Shown: positions 29,668 through 61,638 of the stretch, in pieces
Position numbering within the stretch: the stretch's first letter is position 1
Layout: every line of letters starts with the position of its first letter
DNA from: Nitrospirota bacterium
GTDB lineage: Bacteria; UBA2233
Assembly: GCA_011620345.1 (NCBI GenBank)
Contig: WOZJ01000057.1
Location: 124,001 to 188,000, forward strand
DNA: 64,000 nucleotides
Direction of reading: 5' to 3'
The notes under the pieces: generated by a model
Databases searched by the model: none
Told to the model about the DNA's origin: nothing
Seen by the model: only the letters and a program-made list of their open reading frames with translations
Made by a program: the position numbers and the translations under genes

Positions 29668-31629
29668 CTAGCTCGCTATATCTACAAAGTTTTTTTGTCC
29701 GGCGAATTCTGGAGATTTGTCTGCCAAAGGAATGAGCGTAAGGACCCCTCCAAGACACATGAGCGTTCCTCCAAGCCAAAGGAATCCAATCAGCGGGTTG
29801 TCGTGAACCTCAAACACACCTTGTTGATGCTGGAAATCATAGCCCGCAAGGACGGCATAAACGTCTCCGCTGGGCCTTGACCGGATGGCTACTCGCGTTA
29901 CAGGCTGCTCTTGATTTTTTAGGAATGTCTTGCTAGGCACGAGCGAGGAGACGAAGGTTCCGTTTTTGTACAGGTGAAGAAGAGAGGAGATTGTAATCCA
30001 AGGACCATCTTGCTTAAAAGCCAGCCCATCGAACACCAGCTGATTGTCCCCGACCGAGGTCGATTCCCCCTTCTTCAGGCTTACTTCTTGCTTGGTGTGG
30101 CCATACTGCCCAAACACACCAAAAAGAGAGATCACCAAGCCAGTGTGGACAAGGATCGCTCCAACACGCCGTATTCTTAGGTCTCCAAGAAAGGCGCTAA
30201 CCAGCGCGTGTTTCAGGATGCCTACAGCCGCGAACCCCAAAAAGGCCATCCCTACCAACTCATTGAGATGTCGAAGCCCAAATATCCCCCATGCGAGCCC
30301 ACCAACGACAAGGCCCCCGATGATGGGCCCAAGCAGCGAAGAAAGGGTACGTTTGAGTGTCTCGGGAGATGGTGGCAGGAAAAGGCCGGCCCCTAGCGTG
30401 AACAGCAATGCCCAGGCGAGAGGAGCGTTGATCTTGTTGAAGAAAGCCGCCCCTAAACTGAGCTTTTGCCCGATGAATGCTTCCGAAACTAGCGGGAATA
30501 TCGTTCCCCAAAACGTCGTGAACGTCATGGCGACGAGAATCACGCAGGTGAAAACCAGCGCGGAAGGACGCGAGAGCAAAGGAAGGCTCTCTAGGTTTTT
30601 CTCGCCCTTGAGGAGCCCGCGCCGCAAGAAGATCAGGCCGAATCCGTAGACCAAAAGCGCAAACAGAAACGCCGTGAAGCTGATTGTAAAGGTCTTATTT
30701 TGGACGAAGGCGTGAACCGAGCTGATGATACCGCTCCGCGTGAGGAAGGTTCCAAAGATGGTCAGCCCAAAAGAAAAAACGACGAGGGCAAGGTTCCATT
30801 TCTTCAGCAGCCCCGTGCGGGCCTGCAGCAGCAACGTATGCAATAGAGCTGAAAGCGTAAGCCAAGGCAGCAATCCCGCGTTCTCGACAGGGTCCCATGC
30901 CCAGAAGCCGCCCCACCCTAACGTTTCGTATGCCCAGTTGCCCCCCAAAAGGTTTCCGATTCCCAAAAGCCCCCATGACCCAAGGCAGAACGTTCGAATC
31001 GCCCGAAAGGCGCTCGGGTTGTCGAATTTGGCGAGCAGCATCCCCACAACGAGCGCGTAGGGAACCGTCGCGCTGATGTAGCCAAGATACAAGGTAGGCG
31101 GGTGGATGGCCATGATCGGATGCTGGAGTTGTGCATTGAGGCCTAGTCCTTCGGCAGGCGTGAAAGGGAGTAGCGTAAATGGGTTCGTAACGAAAACGAC
31201 GAGTGCCAAAAAGAAAACGAGCACGCCCAGGATGGCGTGGTATGAGTACAGGCTAACGTTTAAGGGTAGCCCGAACGTCTTTCTGAAGGTCAAGAGCGAA
31301 ACGACCCCCATCAAAGCGACCATCCAGGCCCAAAGAAGCAGCGAGCCGGCCTGGCCTGCCCAGAATGCGGTCATCGTGTATAAAAAGGGAAGATCTTTCG
31401 AGACGTGGCTTGCTACGTACTCAACCCTTAGGTCTTTGGTTGCCAAAAGTTCTATCAGACATAGAGAGGCAACGGAAAGGAGCCCAAACGACGCAACAAT
31501 CGTTCTTGTCGCACTCTTGGCCAAACGGGCCTTTTCTTTTGGATTCTTGGCGGCCGTAAAGGCTGAAACAGACCCGTAAAGAGCGACAAGAAGGGCAAGA
31601 AGAAGGGCGAAACTTCCAAGGCTTGCCAT
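29668..31629 (-). CDS. ccmF: Cytochrome c heme lyase subunit CcmF
   Basis: Large membrane protein that takes heme from CcmE and attaches it to apocytochromes. About 653 residues with some 14 hydrophobic segments, the WWD-type heme loop WGGFWAWDPVENAGLLPW, the preceding GNLLGGNWAYETLG and IMAIHPPTLYLGY with conserved histidine, and a C-terminal periplasmic domain. I start at ATG 31629, two bases after ccmE; the frame is open upstream but would run into ccmE. No ccmG or ccmH gene is seen in the operon. Confidence 0.95.
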   Translation of the reverse strand: MASLGSFALLLALLVALYGSVSAFTAAKNPKEKARLAKSATRTIVASFGLLSVASLCLIELLATKDLRVEYVASHVSKDLPFLYTMTAFWAGQAGSLLLWAWMVALMGVVSLLTFRKTFGLPLNVSLYSYHAILGVLVFFLALVVFVTNPFTLLPFTPAEGLGLNAQLQHPIMAIHPPTLYLGYISATVPYALVVGMLLAKFDNPSAFRAIRTFCLGSWGLLGIGNLLGGNWAYETLGWGGFWAWDPVENAGLLPWLTLSALLHTLLLQARTGLLKKWNLALVVFSFGLTIFGTFLTRSGIISSVHAFVQNKTFTISFTAFLFALLVYGFGLIFLRRGLLKGEKNLESLPLLSRPSALVFTCVILVAMTFTTFWGTIFPLVSEAFIGQKLSLGAAFFNKINAPLAWALLFTLGAGLFLPPSPETLKRTLSSLLGPIIGGLVVGGLAWGIFGLRHLNELVGMAFLGFAAVGILKHALVSAFLGDLRIRRVGAILVHTGLVISLFGVFGQYGHTKQEVSLKKGESTSVGDNQLVFDGLAFKQDGPWITISSLLHLYKNGTFVSSLVPSKTFLKNQEQPVTRVAIRSRPSGDVYAVLAGYDFQHQQGVFEVHDNPLIGFLWLGGTLMCLGGVLTLIPLADKSPEFAGQKNFVDIAS

Positions 31630-31631
31630 GC

Positions 31632-32045
31632 CTACCTCGTTTTGTTTTGCGAAGGGTTGGTCTCCGACTTGGCGCTGTAGCGCGAAGGACAACTCGTCAG
31701 GAGTGTTTTGGCCTCAAATGTTCCGTTCGCCAGGGTGCCCTGGACGATGACCTGCCCCCCCTCGCGCAGCATGTCGGGTACAGCCCCCCGGTAAGCCACC
31801 GGGATCTCTCCTGTTTCGTCCGTTAGCACGAAAAAGGCCCCAAGGCCGCTCGGTTGTTTGGCGATCGAGCCTTGTTTCACCTTTCCGATCACCCTGACCT
31901 CGGGTTTGGACTCTAAGAATTTTGGAATATCTCGGACAGGAACAGAATAAGTGCTGGCCTCCCTGACAGCCCCATACACAAGGTAGGAGAAGCCCACCAA
32001 GAGGATTCCGAGCGCCACGACAAGCTTGGATTTTGGTACACGCAT
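31632..32045 (-). CDS. ccmE: Heme chaperone CcmE, CXXXY type
   Basis: Periplasmic, membrane-anchored heme carrier. The 137-residue protein has an N-terminal helix (KLVVALGILLVGFSYLVYGA), then an OB-fold domain with VRVIGKV, VLTDETGEIPVAY and EGGQVIVQGTL. In most bacteria heme binds covalently to His in HxxxY; here that place is Cys119-Pro-Ser-Arg-Tyr123, the CXXXY variant known from Desulfovibrio and archaea, whose Ccm systems lack CcmG and CcmH. I start at ATG 32045, nine bases after GGAGG. First gene of the operon. Confidence 0.92.
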   Translation of the reverse strand: MRVPKSKLVVALGILLVGFSYLVYGAVREASTYSVPVRDIPKFLESKPEVRVIGKVKQGSIAKQPSGLGAFFVLTDETGEIPVAYRGAVPDMLREGGQVIVQGTLANGTFEAKTLLTSCPSRYSAKSETNPSQNKTR

Positions 32046-37627: not shown

Positions 37628-37915
37628 ATGGAGACCATCAACGCCTTTGCCCAAACATCTGGAACGCTTGTTCAGGCCCCAATCGACATTCTGAACGCCT
37701 CGATCGCTACGGTGCCCCAGCTTTTGCTTACCCCATTCCGTTTGATTACGGAGGGGCTCACGGGCATTACGGGCGCTTCAAGCGCCCTGTTTGAGGGGTT
37801 CTGGGGTTCTTTGAATGCACTCATCATCCCCATTGATGGGTTTTTGAACAGCAGTGCTGCAACGGTGGCTCTTCCGGCAAACATCACGCCATTCGTAGGG
37901 CCGTTTTTGGGTTAA
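37628..37915 (+). CDS. Lysine-free hydrophobic small protein (95 aa)
   Basis: Unrecognised. It is composed mainly of Leu, Ile, Ala, Gly, Ser, Thr, Phe and Pro, with no Lys or Cys and only six charged residues. A strong GGGAGGAGGGG Shine-Dalgarno precedes the ATG. It contains LLLTPFRLI and two hydrophobic runs but no ordinary signal peptide. The next protein shares the LLTPFxLI element, so the two are probably distant paralogues. Lying downstream of a heterodimeric ABC exporter, it may be exported or may coat a hydrophobic surface; neither is shown. Confidence 0.65.
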   Translation: METINAFAQTSGTLVQAPIDILNASIATVPQLLLTPFRLITEGLTGITGASSALFEGFWGSLNALIIPIDGFLNSSAATVALPANITPFVGPFLG

Positions 37916-37945: not shown

Positions 37946-38230
37946 ATGGAAGGAATAACCGCCTTTAGTCAAGACTTGGGGGGCGTTCCCCTGGGGGCAT
38001 TGGCCGATTCCATCAGCGGAATTGGCGATGTAGCCGGCGCCATCTTTGCCCTGCCTCTGACCTCGGCCAACCTGGTTCTTGAAATTGGCGCTCTCCCTTT
38101 CCAGGCGATGCAGGCCATGTTTGAGGCGATGACCGGCTCGGGTGCCGCGCTCTGGGAATCTGCCACCATCCTACTGACGCCCTTTGACCTAATCGGCGCT
38201 TCAATAGCTAACGTTACGACGGTTATCTAG
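37946..38230 (+). CDS. Lysine- and arginine-free hydrophobic small protein (94 aa)
   Basis: Unrecognised companion of the preceding gene, 30 bases downstream with AAGGAGGAA before its ATG. It has no Lys, Arg or Cys and eight acidic residues, so it is strongly acidic and otherwise hydrophobic (LTSANLVLEIGALPFQAMQAMF, ILLTPFDLIGASIANV, in parts). The ILLTPFDLI element matches LLLTPFRLI of the previous protein. Both genes end before a strong terminator region. Confidence 0.65.
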   Translation: MEGITAFSQDLGGVPLGALADSISGIGDVAGAIFALPLTSANLVLEIGALPFQAMQAMFEAMTGSGAALWESATILLTPFDLIGASIANVTTVI

Positions 38231-48070: not shown

Positions 48071-49927
48071 TCATGCCCCATTAGGATTCGCAACGTGGAA
48101 GAGGGCTGTCTTTAAGGTTCCTCCAAAGGCATGGCATTGGTTGCAGAGTGCGGGGGCGTTGTGCTCCTTCTTGTCCACATGGCAGGCTAGGCACGTGTCC
48201 CTCGAGGACAGCTTCCAGTTATGGGGCTTGTGGCAATCGGTGCAAGCGGCGCTGGGATGGCCGCCAGCGGCATGGAGCCCTCCTAGGCCAGTATGACAAC
48301 CTTTGCAGTCGTTCTGCGGTTGGCGAGCTCCTGCGAGCTGATGGCAAGTCCCGCAATCGCCGGACATCATGGGCGCGCGCTTATTCAGCTTGTGGCATTC
48401 TGCACAGTCGATCGGCGGCCGGTAGCCAGCAGCATGGCATTGGTTGCAGAGAATTTCTTTGTGACGACCTTCCAAGGGAATTGGGTGCCAGGACATGTCA
48501 CTCTTGGGAAAGGTACCGGCCAAGGGGGTAAAAGGCCCACGTTCAGGCATGGTATGGCAAGCGGTGCATTCATTGGTTACAACCTTTCCTTCTGAGGAGA
48601 CGTGCTTGCCGTCGTGGCAACGGAAGCATCCAGGCCAGTTCCTGTGGCCAATGTTCATGGCGTAGGTTTTCCAGTTGACGTTCATGGCTGGAAAGACAGA
48701 GCGGTCGTAAATCCCGGAAATGGCCCGGACGGAAGCATTTAGATCCGCCTTGCGGTATTGGAAGACGGTTGGATAGTTTTCTTTGTAAAACCCCTCGATC
48801 GCTCGAGCCATGCGAGTGTGTGCATCGCTGCGGTCCTTGTAGGAAGCTACGAGCGTGTCCACCGCAAGCTTTTTCATCCACGGAAGGTCTTTGGGGATGA
48901 TGCCGCCGACCAGTGCCTCGTCTACAGCCTGGTCAGGGGCCAAGAAAATGTGCGTTGGGCGGTTGTGGCAATCCATGCAATCCATGGTGTGGCGTGGAAC
49001 GGCCTCTAACTGCTCTTTGGAGAGTTTCGTGTTTTTATCGGTGTATGTCGTGATTCTCCCTGTTCTGTTGTCCTTTACGCGGACCCAAGGGATTTTCTGA
49101 AAGTGACGGTCTTCTGCGGCAAAGGTAACCTGGTTCTCGATAACCATGTGCCAATGAACCCCAGAGTTTATCCCGAGGTTTGGGCTTCCTCCGCCCGTTT
49201 TCACGAGCAGGCTGACCTGTTCGGCCGTATTCTTCTCGTCGTAGCGAAAATGTGGGATTTGGAGCATCCGTGCCCCGTAGAACTTTTGCGGCCAGTGGCA
49301 TTCTTCGCATGTTTCGCGTGCCGGGCGCAGGTTGGCAACGGGAACGGGAATTGGTCGCTCGTAGCTGTTGGTTAATACGGCCCATACTTGTCGCATTCCC
49401 GAAAGCTTCGAGCGAACGTACCAGGAAGCGCCAGCTCCCACATGGCAATCCACGCAGCGAACACGGGCGTGGGGCGAATAAAGGTATGCGGTGTGTTCGG
49501 GTTCCATGACAGTATGGCATACCTTGCCGCAAAAGGTAACGGACTCCGTAAAAAGGAAGGCGTTGTAGCCTGCAAAGGCTAAAAGAAGGAAGAGGATAGA
49601 GCTTGCGGCCAACGCAAGTGCGAATTTTCTCCTATGGCTAGGGTCATTCAAATCGAGCCTGGGGAATGGGGGCGCTTCTGTGATTCCAAGCCTACGCCTT
49701 CGGAGGCTTTCAAGGGCCATGCCAAACAGGAAAAGGGCTAGGCCAAGCGTAAGGATGCCTGGGAACACCATGTACGTAAAGATGCCTATGTACGGGCTGG
49801 AAGGCGCTAACCCTATCCCCCACAGGGCGCTTCCTAGGATGAACAAGGCGCTGATAGCGATAATGAAAGCGCCAAAGTAGCTCACGGTGTTCTTATACAA
49901 CCCTACGCTACTGGAGCGTTCCCCCAC
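48071..49927 (-). CDS. Membrane-anchored 13-heme cytochrome c (NapC/NrfH-like N-terminus)
   Basis: 618 residues. Three hydrophobic helices lie in the first 125 residues. The periplasmic part has 12 CXXCH sites (CVDCH, CEECH, CMDCH, CFRCH, CTACH, CNQCH twice, CAECH, CGTCH, CKGCH, CTDCH, CLACH) and one CX3CH (Cys133-GKV-Cys137-His138) as the first. The first part (heme, then HARVRCVDCHVGAG) resembles NapC/NrfH quinol oxidases; the last 170 residues hold nine closely spaced hemes. It may pass electrons from quinol to periplasmic or outer-membrane carriers. The partner is not known. Confidence 0.9.
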   Translation of the reverse strand: MGERSSSVGLYKNTVSYFGAFIIAISALFILGSALWGIGLAPSSPYIGIFTYMVFPGILTLGLALFLFGMALESLRRRRLGITEAPPFPRLDLNDPSHRRKFALALAASSILFLLLAFAGYNAFLFTESVTFCGKVCHTVMEPEHTAYLYSPHARVRCVDCHVGAGASWYVRSKLSGMRQVWAVLTNSYERPIPVPVANLRPARETCEECHWPQKFYGARMLQIPHFRYDEKNTAEQVSLLVKTGGGSPNLGINSGVHWHMVIENQVTFAAEDRHFQKIPWVRVKDNRTGRITTYTDKNTKLSKEQLEAVPRHTMDCMDCHNRPTHIFLAPDQAVDEALVGGIIPKDLPWMKKLAVDTLVASYKDRSDAHTRMARAIEGFYKENYPTVFQYRKADLNASVRAISGIYDRSVFPAMNVNWKTYAMNIGHRNWPGCFRCHDGKHVSSEGKVVTNECTACHTMPERGPFTPLAGTFPKSDMSWHPIPLEGRHKEILCNQCHAAGYRPPIDCAECHKLNKRAPMMSGDCGTCHQLAGARQPQNDCKGCHTGLGGLHAAGGHPSAACTDCHKPHNWKLSSRDTCLACHVDKKEHNAPALCNQCHAFGGTLKTALFHVANPNGA

Positions 49928-50254: not shown

Positions 50255-50680
50255 CTAAGGCCTTGCAGCTGCCGCCTGTGAGATCCCCTTGACAGTCATC
50301 GTCCCATCCGGCTGGACGCTGTGGCAATCCTGGCAGCGGCCGCCGTAGAACATGACAAAGTGGTTGTTTTCTCCCAAAAGGTGTCCTTGATGGAGAACTT
50401 TATAGAACTCTGGTGCGGCCGACCCGTTGTGACAAGCTTGCATGCATTGGGTAGGGGTGTTGCCCATGTTGGAGTCTACCTGGGGGTGCCTACCTTCTCT
50501 TTGCATTAAAACCATCATTGCGGGCAAGGAAAAGAGCGATGTGACCCCTTGTGGGGTATGGCAAGTCAGGCAGACAACGTCCTGATCGGCGGCCTTGGCT
50601 TTTGAAAGGCCGAAGCCAGGTACCGCTACCATGCCTATTAGGCCAAGCCCAAGAAAGGAAAGCGCCGTTTTCTTTTTCAT
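50255..50680 (-). CDS. Small triheme cytochrome c with a CX3CH site
   Basis: 141 residues; signal peptide ends AKAADQ. Heme sites: C37-LT-C40-H, C79-MQA-C83-H (CX3CH) and C116-QD-C119-H. The histidines His65, His97, His100 and His107 are possible sixth ligands. Periplasmic electron carrier by inference. It follows the 66-residue hydrophobic protein by 47 bases and ends before the strong terminator. Confidence 0.85.
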   Translation of the reverse strand: MKKKTALSFLGLGLIGMVAVPGFGLSKAKAADQDVVCLTCHTPQGVTSLFSLPAMMVLMQREGRHPQVDSNMGNTPTQCMQACHNGSAAPEFYKVLHQGHLLGENNHFVMFYGGRCQDCHSVQPDGTMTVKGISQAAAARP

Positions 50681-50727: not shown

Positions 50728-50928
50728 TTAATGGATCAAGCTCGTGACTCCGGGCATGATGTCGAGGAAGATCGGCCCAAGGATTGGAATCTGAGCAATT
50801 GAGTTCACTATGGGGAAAATGACTCCCATGAGCGTTGCGGCGAGGTCGGCCGGAATCGTGATGGGTAGGTTGACAATTGGTTGAATTAGCGGGCCGACAA
50901 CCGGCTTGATCGAGGCAGCCGTGTTCAT
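50728..50928 (-). CDS. Hydrophobic small protein (66 aa) upstream of the triheme cytochrome
   Basis: Almost uncharged: one Lys and two Asp among 66 residues, rich in Ile, Pro, Val and Leu (PVVGPLIQPIVNLPITIP, GVIFPIVNSIAQIPILGPIF). GGGAGGG precedes the ATG, so translation is likely. It has no usual signal peptide. Composition recalls the proteins at 37628-38230. The pairing with a cytochrome suggests an assembly or membrane-docking role; not recognised otherwise. Confidence 0.65.
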   Translation of the reverse strand: MNTAASIKPVVGPLIQPIVNLPITIPADLAATLMGVIFPIVNSIAQIPILGPIFLDIMPGVTSLIH

Positions 50929-51129
50929 GGAAAACCCTCCCTTTTTTGTTTAACTAGAACATTGGCGCAAAAGCAGAACATATGCATACATTCAGGAGGA
51001 ATTTTAGTCTCGTAACTGATGCCTTGTCAAGCCCTCCATACCATATGGTCCGTTTGACCATTTTGTGCATAATGTGCTAGGTTACAACCCAATATTGAGA
51101 TTGAAAACTGGGCATCATTGAGGAGAACG

Positions 51130-53178
51130 ATGAAATTCATATTAAAGTGTAGTTGGGGTAGGATGAGCAGAATGTTGATGCCTTTAGGAAGAATCGGGCT
51201 CCTCGCTTTTTTTTGTTTAGGTCTTTCCGGGCCAACGGCATACGCGCTTACCAACGAAGATTGCCTGATGTGCCATGCCAACATGGAGCCAAGACTCGAT
51301 GCATCCGTATTTTCTCAAAGTGCCCATGGCGGGCTGAACTGCCAAGACTGCCACGAGAACATCCAAGACGTTCCCCATCAAACGCAGCTCAAATTGGTTC
51401 GCTGCGGGAATTGTCATACGCAGGAATTCGCGGAATATCAGCTGGGGGTCCATGGCAAAGCTTTGGCCAATGGAACGAAAGACGTCCCTTCCTGCGCTTC
51501 TTGCCATGGAACTCATGATATTTTCCCTAAAAGTGATGTTCGCTCCAAAGTAAACCCCCTGAACCTCCCCGGGGTTTGTTCGGGATGCCATGCCAGCCAA
51601 GAGATCACTCGCCGCCATCCTCTGCCATCTCCGGAATTTATCGAAAGTTACCAGAAGAGCGTCCATGGGCAAGGTGTGTTGAAGAGTGGCCTGGTGGTCG
51701 CGGCCGTATGCTCGGACTGTCACGGTGGCCATAGAATCCTGCCCGCCTCGGACCCCGCGTCCTTGGTCAATCCAAAAAACATCCCTAAGACCTGTTCTAA
51801 GTGCCATGCAGGGATTTTTAGGGATTTTACCAGGAGTGCTCACGGAGAGGCCTGGAGGGCTGGCAAGAGTTACGGGCCTGTGTGTACCACTTGCCATACG
51901 GCGCACAGTATTTCCTCACCCCGTACGGCGGCGTTTCATGGGGGGATTGCCGAAGAGTGCGGAGGGTGCCATGTCGACAGGACCCCTAGCTATAGAGATA
52001 CCTTCCATGGTCAAGCCACTTCGCTCGGTCTTATTCGGGCGGCAACCTGCCCGGACTGTCATACCGCGCATTTGAACCTTCCAAAAGAAAACCCTCACTC
52101 CAGCATCAACCCCAAAAATCTCCCCGGGACTTGCGGCAGGTGCCATGGACAGGTGTCCAAAGGGTTTATTCAATACGACCCCCATCCTGATCCAAAGGAC
52201 AAATCAAAGAACGCTGTCGTTTTCTACACGTACACGTTCATGAATTGGCTGCTTTTGGGGGTGTTTGCCTTTTTTGGCCTTCATTCCGCACTTTGGATCC
52301 AGCGGAGCCTCGTTGCTTCGGTGCGTGGGGAGTTCCCTAGGCTTGACAAAGAGGGGCCATGGGTCCGGCGCTTTAGCCAGACCAACCGGATGACCCACCT
52401 AGTCATCGTGATCAGCTTCTTGCTCCTTGCAGCTACGGGACTGCCCCTGAAGTTCCACTACACACCCTGGGCAAAGGTTGTAGAGGCCATATTTGGCGGG
52501 ATCGAGGTGACTCGCTATCTCCACAAGCTTTTTGCCGTCGTGACGTTTGGATATGCGATTACGCATGTCAGCTATCTTGTCTACCGCATTTACAAAAAAG
52601 GCGAGCTAAACCTTCTGTACGGCCCTTTCAGCCTGACTCCGCGCCCCAAGGATGCGCTTGACCTTCTTGCAAACCTTCGCTGGTTCCTCTACATGGGGCC
52701 GAGGCCCAAGCTCGGACGCTGGACCTACTGGGAGAAGTTCGATTACTTCGCCGTGTTTTGGGGAATTCCGATCATCGGAGGATCCGGACTCATGCTTTGG
52801 TTCCCGGGTTTTTTCACAAAATTCCTCCCCGGCTGGGTTCTGAATGTGGCCATGATCGTCCACTCCGAAGAAGCGCTTATGGCTATCGGGTTTATCTTCC
52901 TGTTCCACTTCTTCCACACCCACTTAAGGCCGGAAAGTTTTCCTTTAGACACCGTCATCTTTACTGGAAGCATGCCCTTGGAGCGGCTCAAGGAAGAAAG
53001 GCCGGAGGAGTACGAGCTTTTGGTCAAGAAAGGCGAGCTTGAACGCCTGATTGTCCCGGCTCCATCGAATAGTTTGCTGCGTGCCTCTCGGATCTTTGGC
53101 TTTGTGGCGCTTACCGTGGGGCTTTGCCTGATTTGGGCGATCCTGATCACGGCGGTACTCCATATGTTGGCTTTATAA
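51130..53178 (+). CDS. 11-heme cytochrome c fused to a b-type membrane domain (CbcL-like)
   Basis: About 682 residues. A signal peptide is followed by 11 CXXCH sites (CLMCH, CQDCH, CGNCH, CASCH, CSGCH, CSDCH, CSKCH, CTTCH, CGGCH, CPDCH, CGRCH) up to residue 345, then a membrane part of about 330 residues with conserved histidines (YLHKLFAVVTFGYAITHV, HSEEALMAIGFIFLFHFFHTH) and the signature FPLDTVIFTG. This c-b fusion is the plan of Geobacter CbcL, a quinol oxidase feeding extracellular acceptors. ATG 51130 follows AGGAGAA. Confidence 0.88.
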   Translation: MKFILKCSWGRMSRMLMPLGRIGLLAFFCLGLSGPTAYALTNEDCLMCHANMEPRLDASVFSQSAHGGLNCQDCHENIQDVPHQTQLKLVRCGNCHTQEFAEYQLGVHGKALANGTKDVPSCASCHGTHDIFPKSDVRSKVNPLNLPGVCSGCHASQEITRRHPLPSPEFIESYQKSVHGQGVLKSGLVVAAVCSDCHGGHRILPASDPASLVNPKNIPKTCSKCHAGIFRDFTRSAHGEAWRAGKSYGPVCTTCHTAHSISSPRTAAFHGGIAEECGGCHVDRTPSYRDTFHGQATSLGLIRAATCPDCHTAHLNLPKENPHSSINPKNLPGTCGRCHGQVSKGFIQYDPHPDPKDKSKNAVVFYTYTFMNWLLLGVFAFFGLHSALWIQRSLVASVRGEFPRLDKEGPWVRRFSQTNRMTHLVIVISFLLLAATGLPLKFHYTPWAKVVEAIFGGIEVTRYLHKLFAVVTFGYAITHVSYLVYRIYKKGELNLLYGPFSLTPRPKDALDLLANLRWFLYMGPRPKLGRWTYWEKFDYFAVFWGIPIIGGSGLMLWFPGFFTKFLPGWVLNVAMIVHSEEALMAIGFIFLFHFFHTHLRPESFPLDTVIFTGSMPLERLKEERPEEYELLVKKGELERLIVPAPSNSLLRASRIFGFVALTVGLCLIWAILITAVLHMLAL

Positions 53179-55094: not shown

Positions 55095-56525
55095 GTGAGG
55101 CTAACGCAGGGGTTTGTAGGGTTAATTTTTGTTGGTCTAGGTCTGGCTCCTACAATGGCTTTGGCTGAGACGACGACCCAGCAAGAGCTCGGTCAATGCA
55201 TGTCTTGCCATGCCAAGCCAGGGCTCGTGAAACGCTTGGGAAAGAATGAGAAAGTCTCGCTAACCCTCGACCTTCAAGCCTACCGGGCCTCGGCCCACAG
55301 CTCGCTCGTTTGTCAGGATTGCCACACGCGGTATTCCACGAAGGCTCATCCGGTAGGTTCGTATACGAGCCGGGAGGAGCTCGCCAGGGAGCACTCCGGG
55401 GCATGCACGAGTTGTCATTCGCTCGATCAGCTAAGCGCGTTGCCCGTCCATGAAGATGTCCTGAAGCCAGGGCATCCGGTTGCATGCTCGAGTTGTCATG
55501 GGGCTCACGAGATCCAGCGGGTCGTGGGCGGCGGGGCTATGGTGAAGGAGCGTGCCTACTGCCTTTCGTGTCACGAGCAGCACATTGAGATGACCTTCGA
55601 AAATGGGGAGACCAAGGATATTTATGTCGAGCTTCGTTCGCTCCTTGCCTCTCCGCATGCGAGCCTTGCATGCTCGGACTGTCACGTGGGGTTTTCAAGA
55701 GATCACCACCCGGATCGCTCGTTTCAGGACGGGAGGTATTACACGCTTGTTTTATCCGAGAGCTGTAAGCGTTGCCATTTCGACAAGTATACCCGGACTC
55801 TAGACAGCATGCATTACCGAGTCCTCATGAAGGGAAATGCGAATGCGCCGGTATGTACCGACTGTCACGGCTCGCACGGTATCTTGCCTGTCGGCAAGGA
55901 CCATTCCATAAGCGCGAAGCGCTGCATGCGATGTCATGAGACCATTTATACGACCTATACAAAGAGTGTGCATGGAAAGGCCTTGTTAGGTGAACACAAC
56001 ATGGATGTGCCCGTATGTGCCGACTGCCACAAGGCACACGAGATTCAAGACCCAAGGACGCTAACCTTTCGTGACCGGATCCCGGAGATGTGCGGGAACT
56101 GCCATGCCAACAAAGAGCTCATGTCTCGCTATGGGCTTTCCCCAGCAGTAGTGAAAACATACCTCCAGGATTTTCACGGAGTTACGCTTTCGCTTTACAA
56201 AATGCAAAGGGAACTAGAGGGTACAAGCTCGGCCAATCCTATTGCTGTATGTTCAGACTGCCACGGGATCCATGACATCCAGAAGCTCTCGGAACAAGAA
56301 ACGGGCCTTGTACGCCAAAACCTGCTCAAGCGCTGCCAGGCATGCCATCCTGGGGCCACCCAGCGGTTTCCCGATGCTTGGCTCTACCACTATGAGCCAA
56401 GCCTTGAAAAGGCCCCCTTGGTCTACGCAGTAAACCTTTTTTACAAAATTTTCATCCCGTTCATGGTCGTGGGATTGCTGTTGCAGGTTTTCTTACATGC
56501 CTGGCGCTACATCGTGAACCGTTAA
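55095..56525 (+). CDS. 13-heme cytochrome c with C-terminal membrane helix
   Basis: 476 residues from GTG 55095: signal peptide ending MALAET, then 13 CXXCH sites (first CMSCH, last CQACH) and a C-terminal helix FIPFMVVGLLLQVFLHAW. Heme spacing is like that of the c part of the fused protein at 51130-53178, and a cytochrome b gene follows five bases later, so the two form a split version of it. A strong AAGGAGGT lies six bases before an in-frame CTG at 55077, which might be the true start. Confidence 0.87.
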   Translation: MRLTQGFVGLIFVGLGLAPTMALAETTTQQELGQCMSCHAKPGLVKRLGKNEKVSLTLDLQAYRASAHSSLVCQDCHTRYSTKAHPVGSYTSREELAREHSGACTSCHSLDQLSALPVHEDVLKPGHPVACSSCHGAHEIQRVVGGGAMVKERAYCLSCHEQHIEMTFENGETKDIYVELRSLLASPHASLACSDCHVGFSRDHHPDRSFQDGRYYTLVLSESCKRCHFDKYTRTLDSMHYRVLMKGNANAPVCTDCHGSHGILPVGKDHSISAKRCMRCHETIYTTYTKSVHGKALLGEHNMDVPVCADCHKAHEIQDPRTLTFRDRIPEMCGNCHANKELMSRYGLSPAVVKTYLQDFHGVTLSLYKMQRELEGTSSANPIAVCSDCHGIHDIQKLSEQETGLVRQNLLKRCQACHPGATQRFPDAWLYHYEPSLEKAPLVYAVNLFYKIFIPFMVVGLLLQVFLHAWRYIVNR

Positions 56526-56539
56526 AAAGGGTGGGAACC

Positions 56540-57295
56540 GTGACCGAACGAAAAATGGCCTTTGTGCAACGCTTGTCTTGGGTGCGAATCATCGAGCACT
56601 GGGTGAATGCTTCCGTGTTCATCCTTCTTGTCGTTACAGGGCTTTCCCAAAAGTTCTATACGTTCGAGCTGTCCCAGCGCTTGATCCTGTTTTTTGGCGG
56701 CATTGATTCGACGCGCTTGATTCATCGTGCCTGCGGGGTGCTGTTTGCCGCCGTTTTGGTTCTCCACATGACCGTCGCGGTTGTAGGGGTCGTGCTGAAG
56801 CGTTGGCAGCCGACGATGCTCATCAACAAAAAAGACTTCTTTGACGCCATAGACAACCTAAGGTACTACTTTGGGCTTTCCGATCACCCGGCAGCTTGCG
56901 ACCGTTATGATTACAAGCAGAAGTTCGAATACTGGGGAGTGGTCATGGGAGGTATTGTCATGGTGGCTACGGGGTTTGTCCTTTGGTTTCCGACGGTGGC
57001 GACGTATCTGCTACCCGGAGAGCTAGTGGCCGTATCGAAGGCCATCCACACGAACGAGGCTATGCTTGCCTTCCTGATCATCTCCATCTGGCATATCTAC
57101 AACGCCGTCTTTTCCCCGGAGGTGTTTCCTTTAGATACGGTGATCTTTACGGGGAAGATTTCGAGGGAGCGCATGATGCACGAGCACCCTCTAGAGCTTG
57201 CAAGGCTCGAGGGAAAAAGCTTAGAAGAGCTCCTTCAAGAAAAAGAGGGCTTTTCTCATGCATCCAGCCCTTTAAAGCCCCCTCCGAACGACTAA
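56540..57295 (+). CDS. Cytochrome b membrane subunit
   Basis: About 251 residues with four membrane helices and histidines for two b hemes: RIIEHWVNASVFILL, LIHRACGVLFAAVLVLHM, IHTNEAMLAFLIISIWHIY. Near the end stands FPLDTVIFTG, also found in the fused protein at 51130-53178, which shows common origin. It should take electrons from the quinone pool for the 13-heme partner. GTG 56540 chosen; an in-frame GTG nine bases upstream is possible. Confidence 0.87.
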   Translation: MTERKMAFVQRLSWVRIIEHWVNASVFILLVVTGLSQKFYTFELSQRLILFFGGIDSTRLIHRACGVLFAAVLVLHMTVAVVGVVLKRWQPTMLINKKDFFDAIDNLRYYFGLSDHPAACDRYDYKQKFEYWGVVMGGIVMVATGFVLWFPTVATYLLPGELVAVSKAIHTNEAMLAFLIISIWHIYNAVFSPEVFPLDTVIFTGKISRERMMHEHPLELARLEGKSLEELLQEKEGFSHASSPLKPPPND

Positions 57296-57311: not shown

Positions 57312-59099
57312 GTGCACCTCCCCCAATTAACTCGCCGCATCCTCCTGCTCGTTATCGCAAGCCTTCTGCCGCTCGTTCTGGGCTATGCCCTGATCCTTGC
57401 CGCTTCGGTCCGGTATGGCAATCAAGGTGCGCTACGATTTACGCAGACCAGGGCAAGGATTCTTTCCGAATCGGTTAAGCTCCATTTGGAGAAAAACCTC
57501 GTTTGGCTCTCGGACATCGCGCTCGGTCTTTCTTTTGGCGAGCCCGCCAAGGAGACCCTTAGACAGTCAAACCCCTACTCGTTGCTCCGTCATGGGTTGA
57601 TCGTCACCGATCTAGAGGGGAACGTCAGGGCCTCATGGCCGGAAACAAGCATTCGCAAGCTTGCCCCGGAAGTGCTGGCTAGGTTGAAGGAGGAAGGTTC
57701 CCCGAGCAGACCTTTCGTATCCGGCCTCGTGGCCAAAGAGCCCTCGGGCCGAACCACAGGCTTTATGCTCGCGCCGGTACGCGAGAGCGCCGGCAAGATT
57801 AAGGGTTGGGTGGGAGGAGAGTTGGACTTCCAAGACCCTGTTTTCGTTCGGCTTCTTGAAGCAGGCAGAGAGCCTTCAGACAACTTCGTCGCAATTTTAG
57901 ACGATGCCGGTCGGGCTTTTGCGTTTATAGGAGACTCTAGGGCCTTTCTCGTTAAAGGGCATGCTGGACTGATTAACCAGGCCCGCTACGATGAGAGCCC
58001 TCGGACTGTTCGCTGCAAAGGGTGTCACAAGAAAGGCGCTCGTGGGGGCGTGTTGGCCGTTGCTTCCGTTACGCTCGCCCCTTGGTGCGTCGCGATCTTA
58101 ACCGTACCGAATGGTCCATCGGGTTCTCCGCTTGGCCTGTGGAAGGCCTTTGGGCTTTTGGGATTGGGATTGTCGCTGGGTGGACTTATTCTTGGCGTGG
58201 GGATGTCCCGCTCGATTCTTCAGCCTATACGCTCACTGATCGAAGGGGCAAAAAGGATCGGGGACGGTGATCTCTCCATCCCCGTCCCCATCCAAGGAAG
58301 CGACGAGATTACGGTTTTGGCGGAAGGATTGGAGCAAACCCGGCTTAGGCTCCTCGAGTCGTTTCTAACGATCCAACGGGTTAATGAAGAGCTCGAGGCC
58401 AAGGTTCAAGAGAGGACCATGCAGGTGCAGTCGCTCTTAAGGAAGGTCATCGGCTCCCAAGAGGAGGAGCGGAAGCGAATTGCACGCGAGTTACACGACG
58501 TAGTCTTGCAGGACATCGCCGCATTTTTGATGAAGCTAGACGTGCTCGCGTTGAGCGAGCGCAAGGATCAAGGACGAATCGAGAAGATGCGCGGGCTTTT
58601 GACCAAAGCGATGGAGGATATTCGTGCCATCATTCAGGGCTTGCGTCCGAGTATTCTTGATGATTTGGGGTTGGATGAGGCCCTAAGGTGGGTTGTGGAC
58701 CGAAGGTTTCAGGATCAGGAATGCGAGGTCTCGATTGAGGTCAAGGGCTATTCTAAGGGGCAGTTGGACTCAAACATAGAAACTGTTACGTTCCGGATTG
58801 CCCAAGAGGCCCTCACCAATGTCCTTAAGCATGCAAGAGCGAGCCGCGCTGTCCTCCGGCTGAGTTGTTCGAGTCGTAGGCTTACCCTTTTCGTTCATGA
58901 TAACGGGGTAGGGTTCGCGGCCGCCGAGTACAAGAAAGAGGTCCGTACGACGGTCGGGTCGGGCATTGGGCTCCAGGGTATGGCAGAAAGGGCCTCGCTT
59001 GTCGGGGGGAGGCTCAAGATCCGGTCATCTCCGGGTAGAGGGTCCCATGTGCGGCTATTCATCCCTTTAGGGAGGTCAGTAGATGAAACAGCCGATTAG
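57312..59099 (+). CDS. Sensor histidine kinase with a heme c motif in its sensor domain
   Basis: 595 residues. One membrane helix near the N-terminus, a periplasmic sensor of about 230 residues (Cache-like; LIVTDLEGNVRAS), a second helix (LWKAFGLLGLGLSLGGLILG), a HAMP domain, a coiled coil, and a NarX/DesK-type kinase with EEERKRIARELHD (phospho-His), AQEALTNVLKHA, HDNGVGF and GIGLQGMAERA. The sensor contains Cys235-Lys-Gly-Cys238-His239 (bases 58014-58028), a CXXCH site for covalent heme. GTG start 17 bases after the cytochrome b gene. Confidence 0.92.
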   Translation: MHLPQLTRRILLLVIASLLPLVLGYALILAASVRYGNQGALRFTQTRARILSESVKLHLEKNLVWLSDIALGLSFGEPAKETLRQSNPYSLLRHGLIVTDLEGNVRASWPETSIRKLAPEVLARLKEEGSPSRPFVSGLVAKEPSGRTTGFMLAPVRESAGKIKGWVGGELDFQDPVFVRLLEAGREPSDNFVAILDDAGRAFAFIGDSRAFLVKGHAGLINQARYDESPRTVRCKGCHKKGARGGVLAVASVTLAPWCVAILTVPNGPSGSPLGLWKAFGLLGLGLSLGGLILGVGMSRSILQPIRSLIEGAKRIGDGDLSIPVPIQGSDEITVLAEGLEQTRLRLLESFLTIQRVNEELEAKVQERTMQVQSLLRKVIGSQEEERKRIARELHDVVLQDIAAFLMKLDVLALSERKDQGRIEKMRGLLTKAMEDIRAIIQGLRPSILDDLGLDEALRWVVDRRFQDQECEVSIEVKGYSKGQLDSNIETVTFRIAQEALTNVLKHARASRAVLRLSCSSRRLTLFVHDNGVGFAAAEYKKEVRTTVGSGIGLQGMAERASLVGGRLKIRSSPGRGSHVRLFIPLGRSVDETAD

Positions 59100-59742
59100 G
59101 GTTTTAATCGTGGACGATCATGCACTCTTACGTGAGGGCATTGCGGCCATCCTTCAGACGGCCGAGGACATCCGAGTTGTGGGCGAGGCGGCTGACGGGC
59201 TTGAAGCGATTAAAAAGGTTGAAGTGTTGCACCCCTCGATCGTTCTTATGGACATAGCCATGCCCGGGCTTGGCGGGCTCGAGGCGACGCTAGAGATTAA
59301 AAAACTGTTCCCGGGGGTTCGGGTGCTCGTGCTTACCCAGTACGACGACAAAGAGTACGTTGACAGGTTTCTCAAGGCAGGCGCTTCTGGTTTTATCCTT
59401 AAGCGTGCGCTGGGTAGGGAGCTCATCGATGCGGTTCGGTCCGTCGATAAGGATGAGGTTTATCTCCATCCAGCAATCGTCAAGGACGTAGTCGAAGGAT
59501 ATTTAACGAAGGACAAGCCCGCTGCTTCTCCCTATGACAGGCTTACAGATAGGGAGAAACAAGTCCTCAAATTGCTTGCAGAGGGGCATACTCACAAAGA
59601 AGCGGCGAGCCTGCTGGGAATTGGCGTGAAAACCGTTATTACCCACCAGGCTCACCTCCAAGAAAAGCTTGGGCTCTCTAGCCGTTCCGAACTGATCCGG
59701 TTCGCCATCCAGCAAAAAATCATCCGAATCGACACTCCGTAA
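59083..59742 (+). CDS. NarL/FixJ-type response regulator
   Basis: 219 residues: receiver domain with Asp11-Asp12, phospho-acceptor Asp57 in IVLMDIAMPG and the Lys in GFILKRA, then a LuxR-type helix-turn-helix (LTDREKQVLKLLAEGHTHKEAASLLGI, in parts, and KTVITHQAHLQEKL). It overlaps the kinase gene by 17 bases and is certainly its partner. Targets are probably the cytochrome genes or the small secreted proteins next to it. Confidence 0.95.
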   Translation: MKQPIRVLIVDDHALLREGIAAILQTAEDIRVVGEAADGLEAIKKVEVLHPSIVLMDIAMPGLGGLEATLEIKKLFPGVRVLVLTQYDDKEYVDRFLKAGASGFILKRALGRELIDAVRSVDKDEVYLHPAIVKDVVEGYLTKDKPAASPYDRLTDREKQVLKLLAEGHTHKEAASLLGIGVKTVITHQAHLQEKLGLSSRSELIRFAIQQKIIRIDTP

Positions 59743-59795: not shown

Positions 59796-59984
59796 TTACT
59801 GAACCTTCGGCGCTGTGGGAGCTCCGCTCTTGGGCGGACACTTGGCAATTTTGTCATCACCATGGCATTTCATCCCGCACCCGGGCTTGGCATTCCCACA
59901 CATGTTGGGCTTTGCCAGAAGGGGAGCGCTAAGAATGCAGAGCGCCACGAATGCCGAGGATAAACAAAGGGCTGCGCGCTTCAT
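59796..59984 (-). CDS. Small secreted four-cysteine protein with CX3CH (copy 1)
   Basis: 62 residues. Signal peptide to about Ala24 (APLLA), then a 38-residue mature part with Cys29, Cys36-GMK-Cys40-His41 and Cys49. The CX3CH could bind heme c; alternatively the four cysteines and His could bind another metal. The last 22 residues, starting HGDDKIAKCP, are identical to the copy at 61450-61638. AAGGAGG precedes the ATG. The gene is convergent with the response regulator. Confidence 0.8.
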   Translation of the reverse strand: MKRAALCLSSAFVALCILSAPLLAKPNMCGNAKPGCGMKCHGDDKIAKCPPKSGAPTAPKVQ

Positions 59985-60057
59985 GCAATACCTCCTTTTT
60001 TGGTTGTGTTGTTGACCTCCAAGAATAACTTCCACCGCCATTTCTCTTTTTTCAAGG

Positions 60058-60066
60058 AGTATACCA
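60058..60066 (-). promoter_or_regulatory. Extended -10 of small-protein copy 1
   Basis: TGGTATACT on the minus strand, with TTCACT 17 bases upstream as a possible -35. The same nine bases occur before ccmE and before copy 3. Confidence 0.5.
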
Positions 60067-60188
60067 AGAATAGTCACAAAAGTGAAGGGCCTTTTATGCC
60101 ATTAGGAAAGAAACCATGAAACTATACCATAAGGATCTAATGAGGATATATTGTACATTCCATGCGAACAAATCATATTATTGCAGGG

Positions 60189-60217
60189 TTGCATTCTCGT
60201 TATTTTTGCTTTAAAAT
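60189..60217 (+). promoter_or_regulatory. Promoter of the four-gene small-protein operon
   Basis: TTGCAT (60189-60194), 17 bases, TAAAAT (60212-60217). Starts of four small genes follow from 60258. Confidence 0.55.
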
Positions 60218-60257
60218 TCCATTGAGTTCAACATTCAACCCCAAAAGGAGGGAGCCT

Positions 60258-60491
60258 ATGAAAAAGCTCGCGTTTCTTACGGCTGCGGGGTATTTCGCCC
60301 TTGCATTTCTCTTTGCACCCGGTGTGTGGGCAAGGTCCAGCATGTGTGGGCAGGCAAAGCCCGGGTGTGGGGGGAGTTGCCACGGCGACGACAAGGTGCA
60401 GAAGTGCCCCAAAAAGAAATCTGGTGCTCTACAGCAATTCTTCGGCCTGGATGGCTTGGAGTCTGGCTTGAGTAAGAGCTTGCTTCAATAA
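60258..60491 (+). CDS. Small secreted four-cysteine protein with CX3CH (copy 2)
   Basis: 77 residues. Signal peptide to about Ala25, then Cys30, Cys37-GGS-Cys41-His42 and Cys50 in the same spacing as the other two family members (AKPGC, CHGDDK, KCP). It carries an extra C-terminal tail ending LESGLSKSLLQ. AAAAGGAGGGAG precedes the ATG. First gene of a four-gene plus-strand operon. Confidence 0.8.
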   Translation: MKKLAFLTAAGYFALAFLFAPGVWARSSMCGQAKPGCGGSCHGDDKVQKCPKKKSGALQQFFGLDGLESGLSKSLLQ

Positions 60492-60514
60492 CCCAACAAA
60501 AGAAGGAGGTTGCG

Positions 60515-60706
60515 ATGAAACGCCTTCAGATTGGAATCCTAAGCATTGCCGTACTCTGCGGCTTCGGGATGTTTTTGGGCTCGCAGGCCTTTGCTTCAGG
60601 CGGGCTGACGGTTACCGGGTGTCCTTGCCATGGGGCCATGAAAACTCAGGTTCAGCAGCCGAGCATGGATGGCCTGCTCAAGGCTCTCCTTGGAAACGCC
60701 AAGTAG
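60515..60706 (+). CDS. Small secreted protein with a CXCH motif
   Basis: 63 residues. Signal peptide to about Ala27 (AFA), then only 36 residues with Cys36-Pro-Cys38-His39. A CXCH spacing is shorter than any standard heme c site. The C-terminus GLLKALLGNAK is nearly the same as that of the next protein. AAGGAGG precedes the ATG, 23 bases after copy 2. Confidence 0.75.
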   Translation: MKRLQIGILSIAVLCGFGMFLGSQAFASGGLTVTGCPCHGAMKTQVQQPSMDGLLKALLGNAK

Positions 60707-60737
60707 CGGGAAATAAACCATAAAGGGAGGAGACGGC

Positions 60738-61019
60738 ATGTCGAGCAAAAAGGCTATTGCAATAGGAGTAATGGCGGGCCTGATGGGGAGTGCGGCGTTA
60801 GCTAGCAACGCGTTTGCCATTGCGCAGACCGGGCTTCTGGGTACGCTCTCCGGTCCACTCATGCAACCTTTGGTTGCCTGGGGTTGTGCACACACTTGCC
60901 ACGAGAGCGAGGTTTTCCCGGATGTCGTTGCCCATAACGCTGGCCTTTTGAAGGCCCCGGTCAGCGGCCAGGCCTCTCAAGAAGCTCTCCTAAAAGCGCT
61001 TCTTGGGCAAGCACAATAA
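60738..61019 (+). CDS. Small secreted protein with CX3CH
   Basis: 93 residues. Signal peptide to about Ala27, a hydrophobic segment (TGLLGTLSGPLMQPLVAW), Cys50-AHT-Cys54-His55 and a C-terminal ALLKALLGQAQ tail matching the previous protein. His66 could be a sixth heme ligand. GGGAGGAG precedes the ATG. Confidence 0.75.
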   Translation: MSSKKAIAIGVMAGLMGSAALASNAFAIAQTGLLGTLSGPLMQPLVAWGCAHTCHESEVFPDVVAHNAGLLKAPVSGQASQEALLKALLGQAQ

Positions 61020-61044
61020 ATACAAACCAAGAAGGGGTAGGAGC

Positions 61045-61329
61045 ATGAAAAAGCTTGGACGTTTATCCATTGCCGGTATTTTAGGAGTAGGGCTAATGGC
61101 CACTCCTTTGTGGGCTTCGGGAACGGTAAGGCCGTTGCAGTCCGTAGGTAACATCTGCGGGCTCTACATGTGTCATCCGATGATTGAATCCGTAACCTCA
61201 TTGGGAGGAAACGTTTTGGGTTCTATGGGACTTTTCTCCATGCTCGAAAACTGGGAAACAGTCGGCATGGGCTCGCCCTACTACAAGGCAGACGTCCAGC
61301 GAACGTTGCGCTATAGCCCAGAGCGTTAG
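61045..61329 (+). CDS. Small secreted protein with CX4CH
   Basis: 94 residues. Signal peptide to about Ala24 (LWA), then Cys38-GLYM-Cys43-His44. CX4CH heme sites are known in tetraheme cytochrome c3. No other His follows, but several Met could be the second ligand. GGGGTAGGAG precedes the ATG, 25 bases after the previous gene. Last gene of the small-protein operon; a terminator follows. Confidence 0.75.
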   Translation: MKKLGRLSIAGILGVGLMATPLWASGTVRPLQSVGNICGLYMCHPMIESVTSLGGNVLGSMGLFSMLENWETVGMGSPYYKADVQRTLRYSPER

Positions 61330-61363
61330 CCCTGTTTGAGCAAGGCGTTGTTTGCTCTAAGCC

Positions 61364-61402
61364 AATCAAGCCCTGGCCTTTAAAGGCCAGGGCTTGATTT
61401 TT
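61364..61402 (+). terminator. Palindromic terminator of the small-protein operon
   Basis: A 36-base perfect palindrome (61364-61399, right half AAAGGCCAGGGCTTGATT) runs into a T-run (61398-61402). A smaller GAGCAA/TTGCTC hairpin precedes it at about 61338-61356. Confidence 0.85.
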
Positions 61403-61449
61403 AAGGGGTAAAGCTCCGACAGGATAAATTACTTACCCTGTCGTCCTTA

Positions 61450-61638
61450 CTACTGAACCTTCGGCGCTGTGGGAGCTCCACTCTTGGGCGGGCACTTGGC
61501 AATTTTGTCATCACCGTGGCATTTCCCGGCGCATCCAGGCTTGGCTTGCGGACACATGGCAGGGCGGGCCATCAAGGGGGCGGTGAAAATCCCTAGCGCA
61601 ACGAGCGCCGCGGACACCCCAAAAACTGTGCGCTTCAT
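61450..61638 (-). CDS. Small secreted four-cysteine protein with CX3CH (copy 3)
   Basis: 62 residues. Signal peptide to about Ala24, then Cys29, Cys36-AGK-Cys40-His41 and Cys49; the last 22 residues equal those of copy 1 (59796-59984). AAAGGAGGAG precedes the ATG. It points toward the plus-strand operon and is separated from it by the palindromic terminator. Confidence 0.8.
   Translation of the reverse strand: MKRTVFGVSAALVALGIFTAPLMARPAMCPQAKPGCAGKCHGDDKIAKCPPKSGAPTAPKVQ

Follow-up and report, generated by a model that had tools for sequence, protein, structure and literature searches.

Six small genes (A–F; Table 1) in the window, the whole 64,000-nucleotide stretch of Nitrospirota DNA analyzed here, encode what are best described as orphan, lineage-specific exported micro-proteins. 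Each protein contains one C-x(n)-CH site, with n = 3, 3, 1, 3, 4 and 3 in A to F, respectively, and n = 2 in none. The six represent two or three lineages rather than six independent cases: A/B/F, C/D (perhaps linked to A/B/F) and E. Attachment of heme c to at least the CX3CH and CX4CH members (A, B, D and F; E) is our tentative reading of these sequences, and falls somewhat short of probable.

Table 1. Features of the A–F locus and of cytochrome-related genes in the window
Feature	Position	Strand	Characteristics
CcmF/NrfE-type heme lyase gene	29668-31692		E = 1e-97, yet under the curated cut-off
ImcH-like NapC/NirT multiheme protein	48071-49927	-	12 CXXCH and an atypical CX3CH (CGKVCH) beside the last (third) of three membrane helices (by eye)
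Triheme protein	50255-50680	-	141 aa, exported; two CXXCH and one CX3CH (CMQACH)
CbcL-like fusion	51118-53178	+	Domain with 11 CXXCH and cytochrome b561 domain
Multiheme cytochrome	55095..56525	+	13 CXXCH; member of a conserved four-gene module
Cytochrome b561-type membrane subunit	56531..57295	+	Same module as the 13-heme cytochrome
Sensor histidine kinase	57312..59099	+	One periplasmic CKGCH, HAMP, HisKA_3, HATPase_c; conserved partner of 55095-57295
NarL-type response regulator	59083..59742	+	Last gene of the 13-heme cytochrome/cytochrome b/kinase/regulator module
Gene A	59796..59984	-	62 aa; CGMKCH; signal peptide, C-x6-C-x3-C-H-x7-C and KSGAPTAPKVQ tail; 73% identity to F
Gene B	60258..60491	+	77 aa; CGGSCH; A/F-type core and C-terminal helix GLDGLESGLSKSLLQ; heads the B-C-D-E run
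Gene C	60515..60706	+	63 aa; GCPCHG (CXCH); C-terminal GLLKALLGNAK in common with D
Gene D	60738..61019	+	93 aa; GCAHTCH (CX3CH); C-terminal ALLKALLGQAQ in common with C
Gene E	61045..61329	+	94 aa; CGLYMCH (CX4CH)
Intrinsic terminator 3' of E	61364..61408	+	Strong palindrome AGCCCTGGCCTTTAAAGGCCAGGGCT followed by a T-rich stretch; reverse-orientation self-match
Gene F	61450..61638	-	62 aa; CAGKCH; paralogue of A

The six-gene set

As an earlier note had described, all six genes are of 62-94 codons and have a signal peptide, a strong Shine-Dalgarno sequence and a single non-CXXCH site. The N-termini combine a basic n-region with a hydrophobic stretch and are thus signal-peptide-like by a hydropathy heuristic, and a GGAGG-like Shine-Dalgarno sequence is located upstream of each gene. 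B, C, D and E follow one another in the same orientation on the plus strand, separated by 23-31 bp.

A CxnCH site (n = 1-4) arises in only 0.1-3% of shuffles of each mature A–F protein. In 320 kb of the source genome, seven of the 21 small ORFs with a signal peptide and a Shine-Dalgarno sequence contain CxnCH, and these seven are A–F and one paralogue on contig C34 (the C34 paralogue). Among 37 such small ORFs in loci of other organisms (922 kb), four contain CxnCH, all of which are ordinary CXXCH cytochromes. The enrichment over shuffles and the census of small ORFs indicate that the six-gene set is real and local. Elsewhere in the window, two adjoining small hydrophobic proteins, alike in style and without clear signal peptides, are encoded at 37628-37915 and 37946-38230 on the plus strand.

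Searches of Pfam, NCBIfam, PHROGs and PDB gave no match of A–F at meaningful E-values, including no match to a cytochrome family. The score of gene C against MerE (NCBIfam NF010310) is 12.6 with a cut-off of 80 (E = 0.1), which is not significant, and that of gene F against the BRANT His-rich protein (NCBIfam NF047414) is 18.5 with a cut-off of 44, over residues 8-32, which are mostly signal peptide. Two AlphaFold2 models consist of helices only at low confidence (pLDDT 52-53) and are unusable for metal or heme geometry.

Relationships, conservation and distribution

The three family members previously reported to have CX3CH are A, B and F, in which two more invariant cysteines outside the CX3CH had been overlooked. 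In an alignment of the mature parts of A, B, F, the C34 paralogue and its orthologue in a congener (G001), four cysteines are invariant in the arrangement C-x6-C-x3-CH-x7-C, and the invariant elements are C, AKPGC, CH, D and KCP. The C34 paralogue adjoins a TolC-like gene in the source genome and G001 alike, and a sigma-70-like promoter is conserved upstream of this orthologue pair. As judged from dN/dS values of ~0.35 with retention of every Cys and His, A and F, as well as the C34 orthologue pair, are under purifying selection. Despite this ratio, dN exceeds that of the adjacent gene severalfold, indicating fast evolution.

Homology of C and D is firm: their C-terminal segments QPSMDGLLKALLGNAK and QASQEALLKALLGQAQ match better than any of 2000 shuffles. 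Outside the Cys motif, similarity between D and the C34 paralogue is equaled by 19 of 2000 shuffles; as the shuffles preserve composition only and several pairs were compared, this link is suggestive. Neither outer cysteine (C1, C4) is found in C or D, which retain G-C-x(n)-C-H, suggesting that C1 and C4 would form a pair of their own and that the inner CxnCH would be the functional core. E has no detectable sequence similarity to A, B, C, D or F, and the residues common to the A/B/F group, C, D and E are the inner C, C and H alone. The presence of the same kind of site in the sequence-unrelated E is the strongest hint that these proteins may have a common chemistry. Conservation of the Cys–His site among homologues had been set as a test beforehand, and the site is kept in all homologues found.

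A profile built from B, C, D, the C34 paralogue and its orthologue retrieves no sequences from the two genomes other than the members already known. A weak match on contig C15 of the source genome was rejected as spurious, being located inside the reading frame of a 234-aa protein. Outside the genus, no family member was found in about 800 genomes altogether (386, spread mostly over different genera; 395 belonging to the same phylum as a Nitrospirota genome; and 15 chosen via the response regulator), a set in which the window's phylum is represented by two genomes only and the lineage is barely sampled. None of the weaker genome matches inspected has the four-cysteine pattern, and viral contigs and plasmids searched contain no family member. 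The first base of a G001 contig (C18) corresponds to ~45.1 kb of the window, with neighbouring DNA 95% identical, and the G001 assembly contains almost nothing of the window from 45.1 to 64 kb; guaB is also missing. This contig end precludes a congener comparison of the A–F locus.

Neighbouring cytochromes and heme maturation

The source genome encodes heme maturation machinery, represented by the CcmF/NrfE-type gene, and many CXXCH proteins. At 9-12 kb from A–F, CX3CH is present in two proteins with an evident heme context, the ImcH-like protein and the triheme protein, and mono-heme micro-cytochromes are therefore possible. The atypical CX3CH is a published family trait of ImcH homologues (PMC6295460). 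ImcH homologues are reported to have 5-9 such motifs, fewer than the 12 CXXCH of the ImcH-like protein of the window.

The triheme protein has no NCBIfam match, and D shows weak similarity to it (48/2000 shuffles). Directly upstream of the triheme gene, a 66-aa hydrophobic protein is encoded at 50728-50928 on the minus strand; its GPLIQPIV resembles GPLMQPLV of D (3/2000 shuffles against the N-terminal part of D and 15/2000 against the whole mature D). The CbcL-like fusion can be compared with CbcL proper, which combines nine c hemes with a di-heme b domain (PMC9129911). The window includes three different quinol-cytochrome modules (48071-49927, 51118-53178 and 55095-57295).

Possible roles of the Cys–His proteins

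Several observations bear on heme attachment. CX3CH of A, B, D and F and CX4CH of E are sites of kinds that occur in natural heme proteins, whereas CXCH of C is not a known heme site. In proteins of at least 120 residues without CXXCH, His follows CxnC in 2/85 (n = 1), 10/210 (n = 3) and 15/100 (n = 4) cases, related proteins possibly being counted repeatedly; with such background rates of 2%, 5% and 15%, His in every lineage is not a background habit. Purifying selection with every Cys and His retained, the CcmF/NrfE-type gene and the disregard of System I for the context of CxxCH (PMC6962350) also count for heme. Against heme, all six proteins deviate from CXXCH, whereas of 45 CxnCH sites located, in the genome sample, within ORFs that carry CXXCH and span 100 aa or more, 43 are CXXCH. 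A–F have no conserved second axial ligand, and the literature offered nothing direct on CXCH heme sites or small natural monoheme peptides. To our knowledge, no natural heme c is bound at CXCH. The earlier proposal of mono-heme micro-cytochromes or metal-binding peptides is therefore upheld in part: the inner Cys–His site is conserved and CX3CH is present in heme contexts nearby, but CXCH of C speaks against heme in that protein.

It is also a credible possibility, itself well short of probable, that A–F are metal-binding or thiol peptides whose spacing keeps them out of the heme register, in which Cys2His (Cys4His in A/B/F) would bind a soft or transition metal or act as a periplasmic redox-active disulfide. 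No lineage has n = 2, the values being 1, 3 or 4 throughout, and nothing about a heme protein would call for such avoidance. System I acts on exported CxxCH largely regardless of context (PMC6962350), and this promiscuity of Ccm means that, in a cytochrome-rich cell, a metal or thiol protein would be selected for any spacing but two. Retention of four cysteines in A/B/F and the C34 paralogue is consistent with this explanation, but the loss of the outer cysteines in C and D means that a four-cysteine site is not general. Also in its favor, the CPCH of gene C is weakly Rieske-box-like and weakly MerE-like, the latter at the non-significant level given above. Against it, His immediately following the second Cys, as seen across all lineages, is uncommon among non-heme proteins; moreover, no metal transporter is recognized beside the A–F locus, and the TolC-like neighbour of the C34 paralogue is a weak hint at most.

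Two other explanations are considerably less probable. One is that A–F are secreted disulfide-bonded or membrane-active peptides with antimicrobial or signaling roles; activity would reside in the amphipathic C-terminal helix (GLLKALLG), and the cysteines would have a structural function. The C-terminal sequences of C and D do resemble amphipathic membrane peptides, and small size and fast evolution fit such a role; however, the helix is missing from A and F, genes for immunity or processing are not recognized, and the His of CH is left without explanation, which makes this reading improbable. Slightly less probable still, and very improbable in itself, is that A–F are ligands or decoys of the adjoining heme-c sensor kinase, binding the same signal and controlled by the kinase–regulator pair. 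In its favor, A lies ~50 bp past the response regulator stop, on the opposite strand. The kinase–regulator pair, however, accompanies the 13-heme cytochrome and its cytochrome b partner elsewhere: the four-gene module recurs in numerous Nitrospirota genomes and, partially, in those of Deltaproteobacteria and others (loci L025-L074), with no small non-CXXCH genes beside it. The kinase thus most simply regulates its own cytochrome module. In addition, a promoter comparison of A–F revealed no common motif beyond the -10-like TTGGTATACT in A and F, and the stretch read around the C34 paralogue contains no such kinase. Control of A–F by this kinase, as proposed previously, is therefore unsupported.

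According to the heme reading, A–F would be exported by Sec, after which the cytochrome c maturation system would attach one heme at CX3CH of A, B, D and F and at CX4CH of E. The mature proteins, predicted to be of ~35-70 residues and built around the single inner C-x(n)-C-H, would be microperoxidase-like products functioning as small electron or heme carriers beside the quinol-oxidising multiheme cytochromes encoded next door. The outer cysteine pair of A/B/F and the C34 paralogue would probably form a disulfide around the inner site, and the short amphipathic C-terminal helix in B, C, D and the C34 paralogue may serve for docking or self-association.

Small c-type cytochromes of the monoheme OmcF and triheme c7 PpcA types are likewise small and exported, have a C..CH site and are encoded near inner-membrane quinol-cytochrome modules. 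In these cytochromes the motif is CXXCH, the folded body comprises 70-100 residues and the second axial ligand is defined, whereas A–F, compared via family and PDB searches only, show none of these features. ImcH/CymA-type NapC/NirT proteins, of which an ImcH-like member is encoded in the window, have CX3CH as in A, B, D and F, but there it serves one of many hemes in a membrane-anchored protein, whereas in A, B, D and F it is the sole site of a tiny soluble protein. Small Cys-rich metal-binding proteins (MerE-like and metallothionein-like) resemble A–F as short exported proteins with paired cysteines and His, but A–F have no significant family match. Microperoxidases, either synthetic or obtained by cleavage of cytochrome c, are heme peptides with a single C..CH on a short chain, as in A–F. 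All microperoxidases that we know of are fragments or synthetic and have CXXCH; A–F would differ in being gene-encoded. That A–F are natural microperoxidases, i.e., a local family of gene-encoded mono-heme micro-cytochromes of 35-70 residues with exclusively non-standard sites (CX3CH, CX4CH and even CXCH) beside EET-type quinol-cytochrome modules, is conceivable but on the doubtful side.

If heme is attached, A–F would be the smallest natural c-type cytochromes known to us, and System I would handle CX3CH, CX4CH and perhaps CXCH on near-bare peptides, which would be useful for bioelectronic peptides. If no heme is attached, A–F would be natural exported Cys–His peptides that evade heme loading by spacing, and would provide a direct test of recognition by the maturation machinery.
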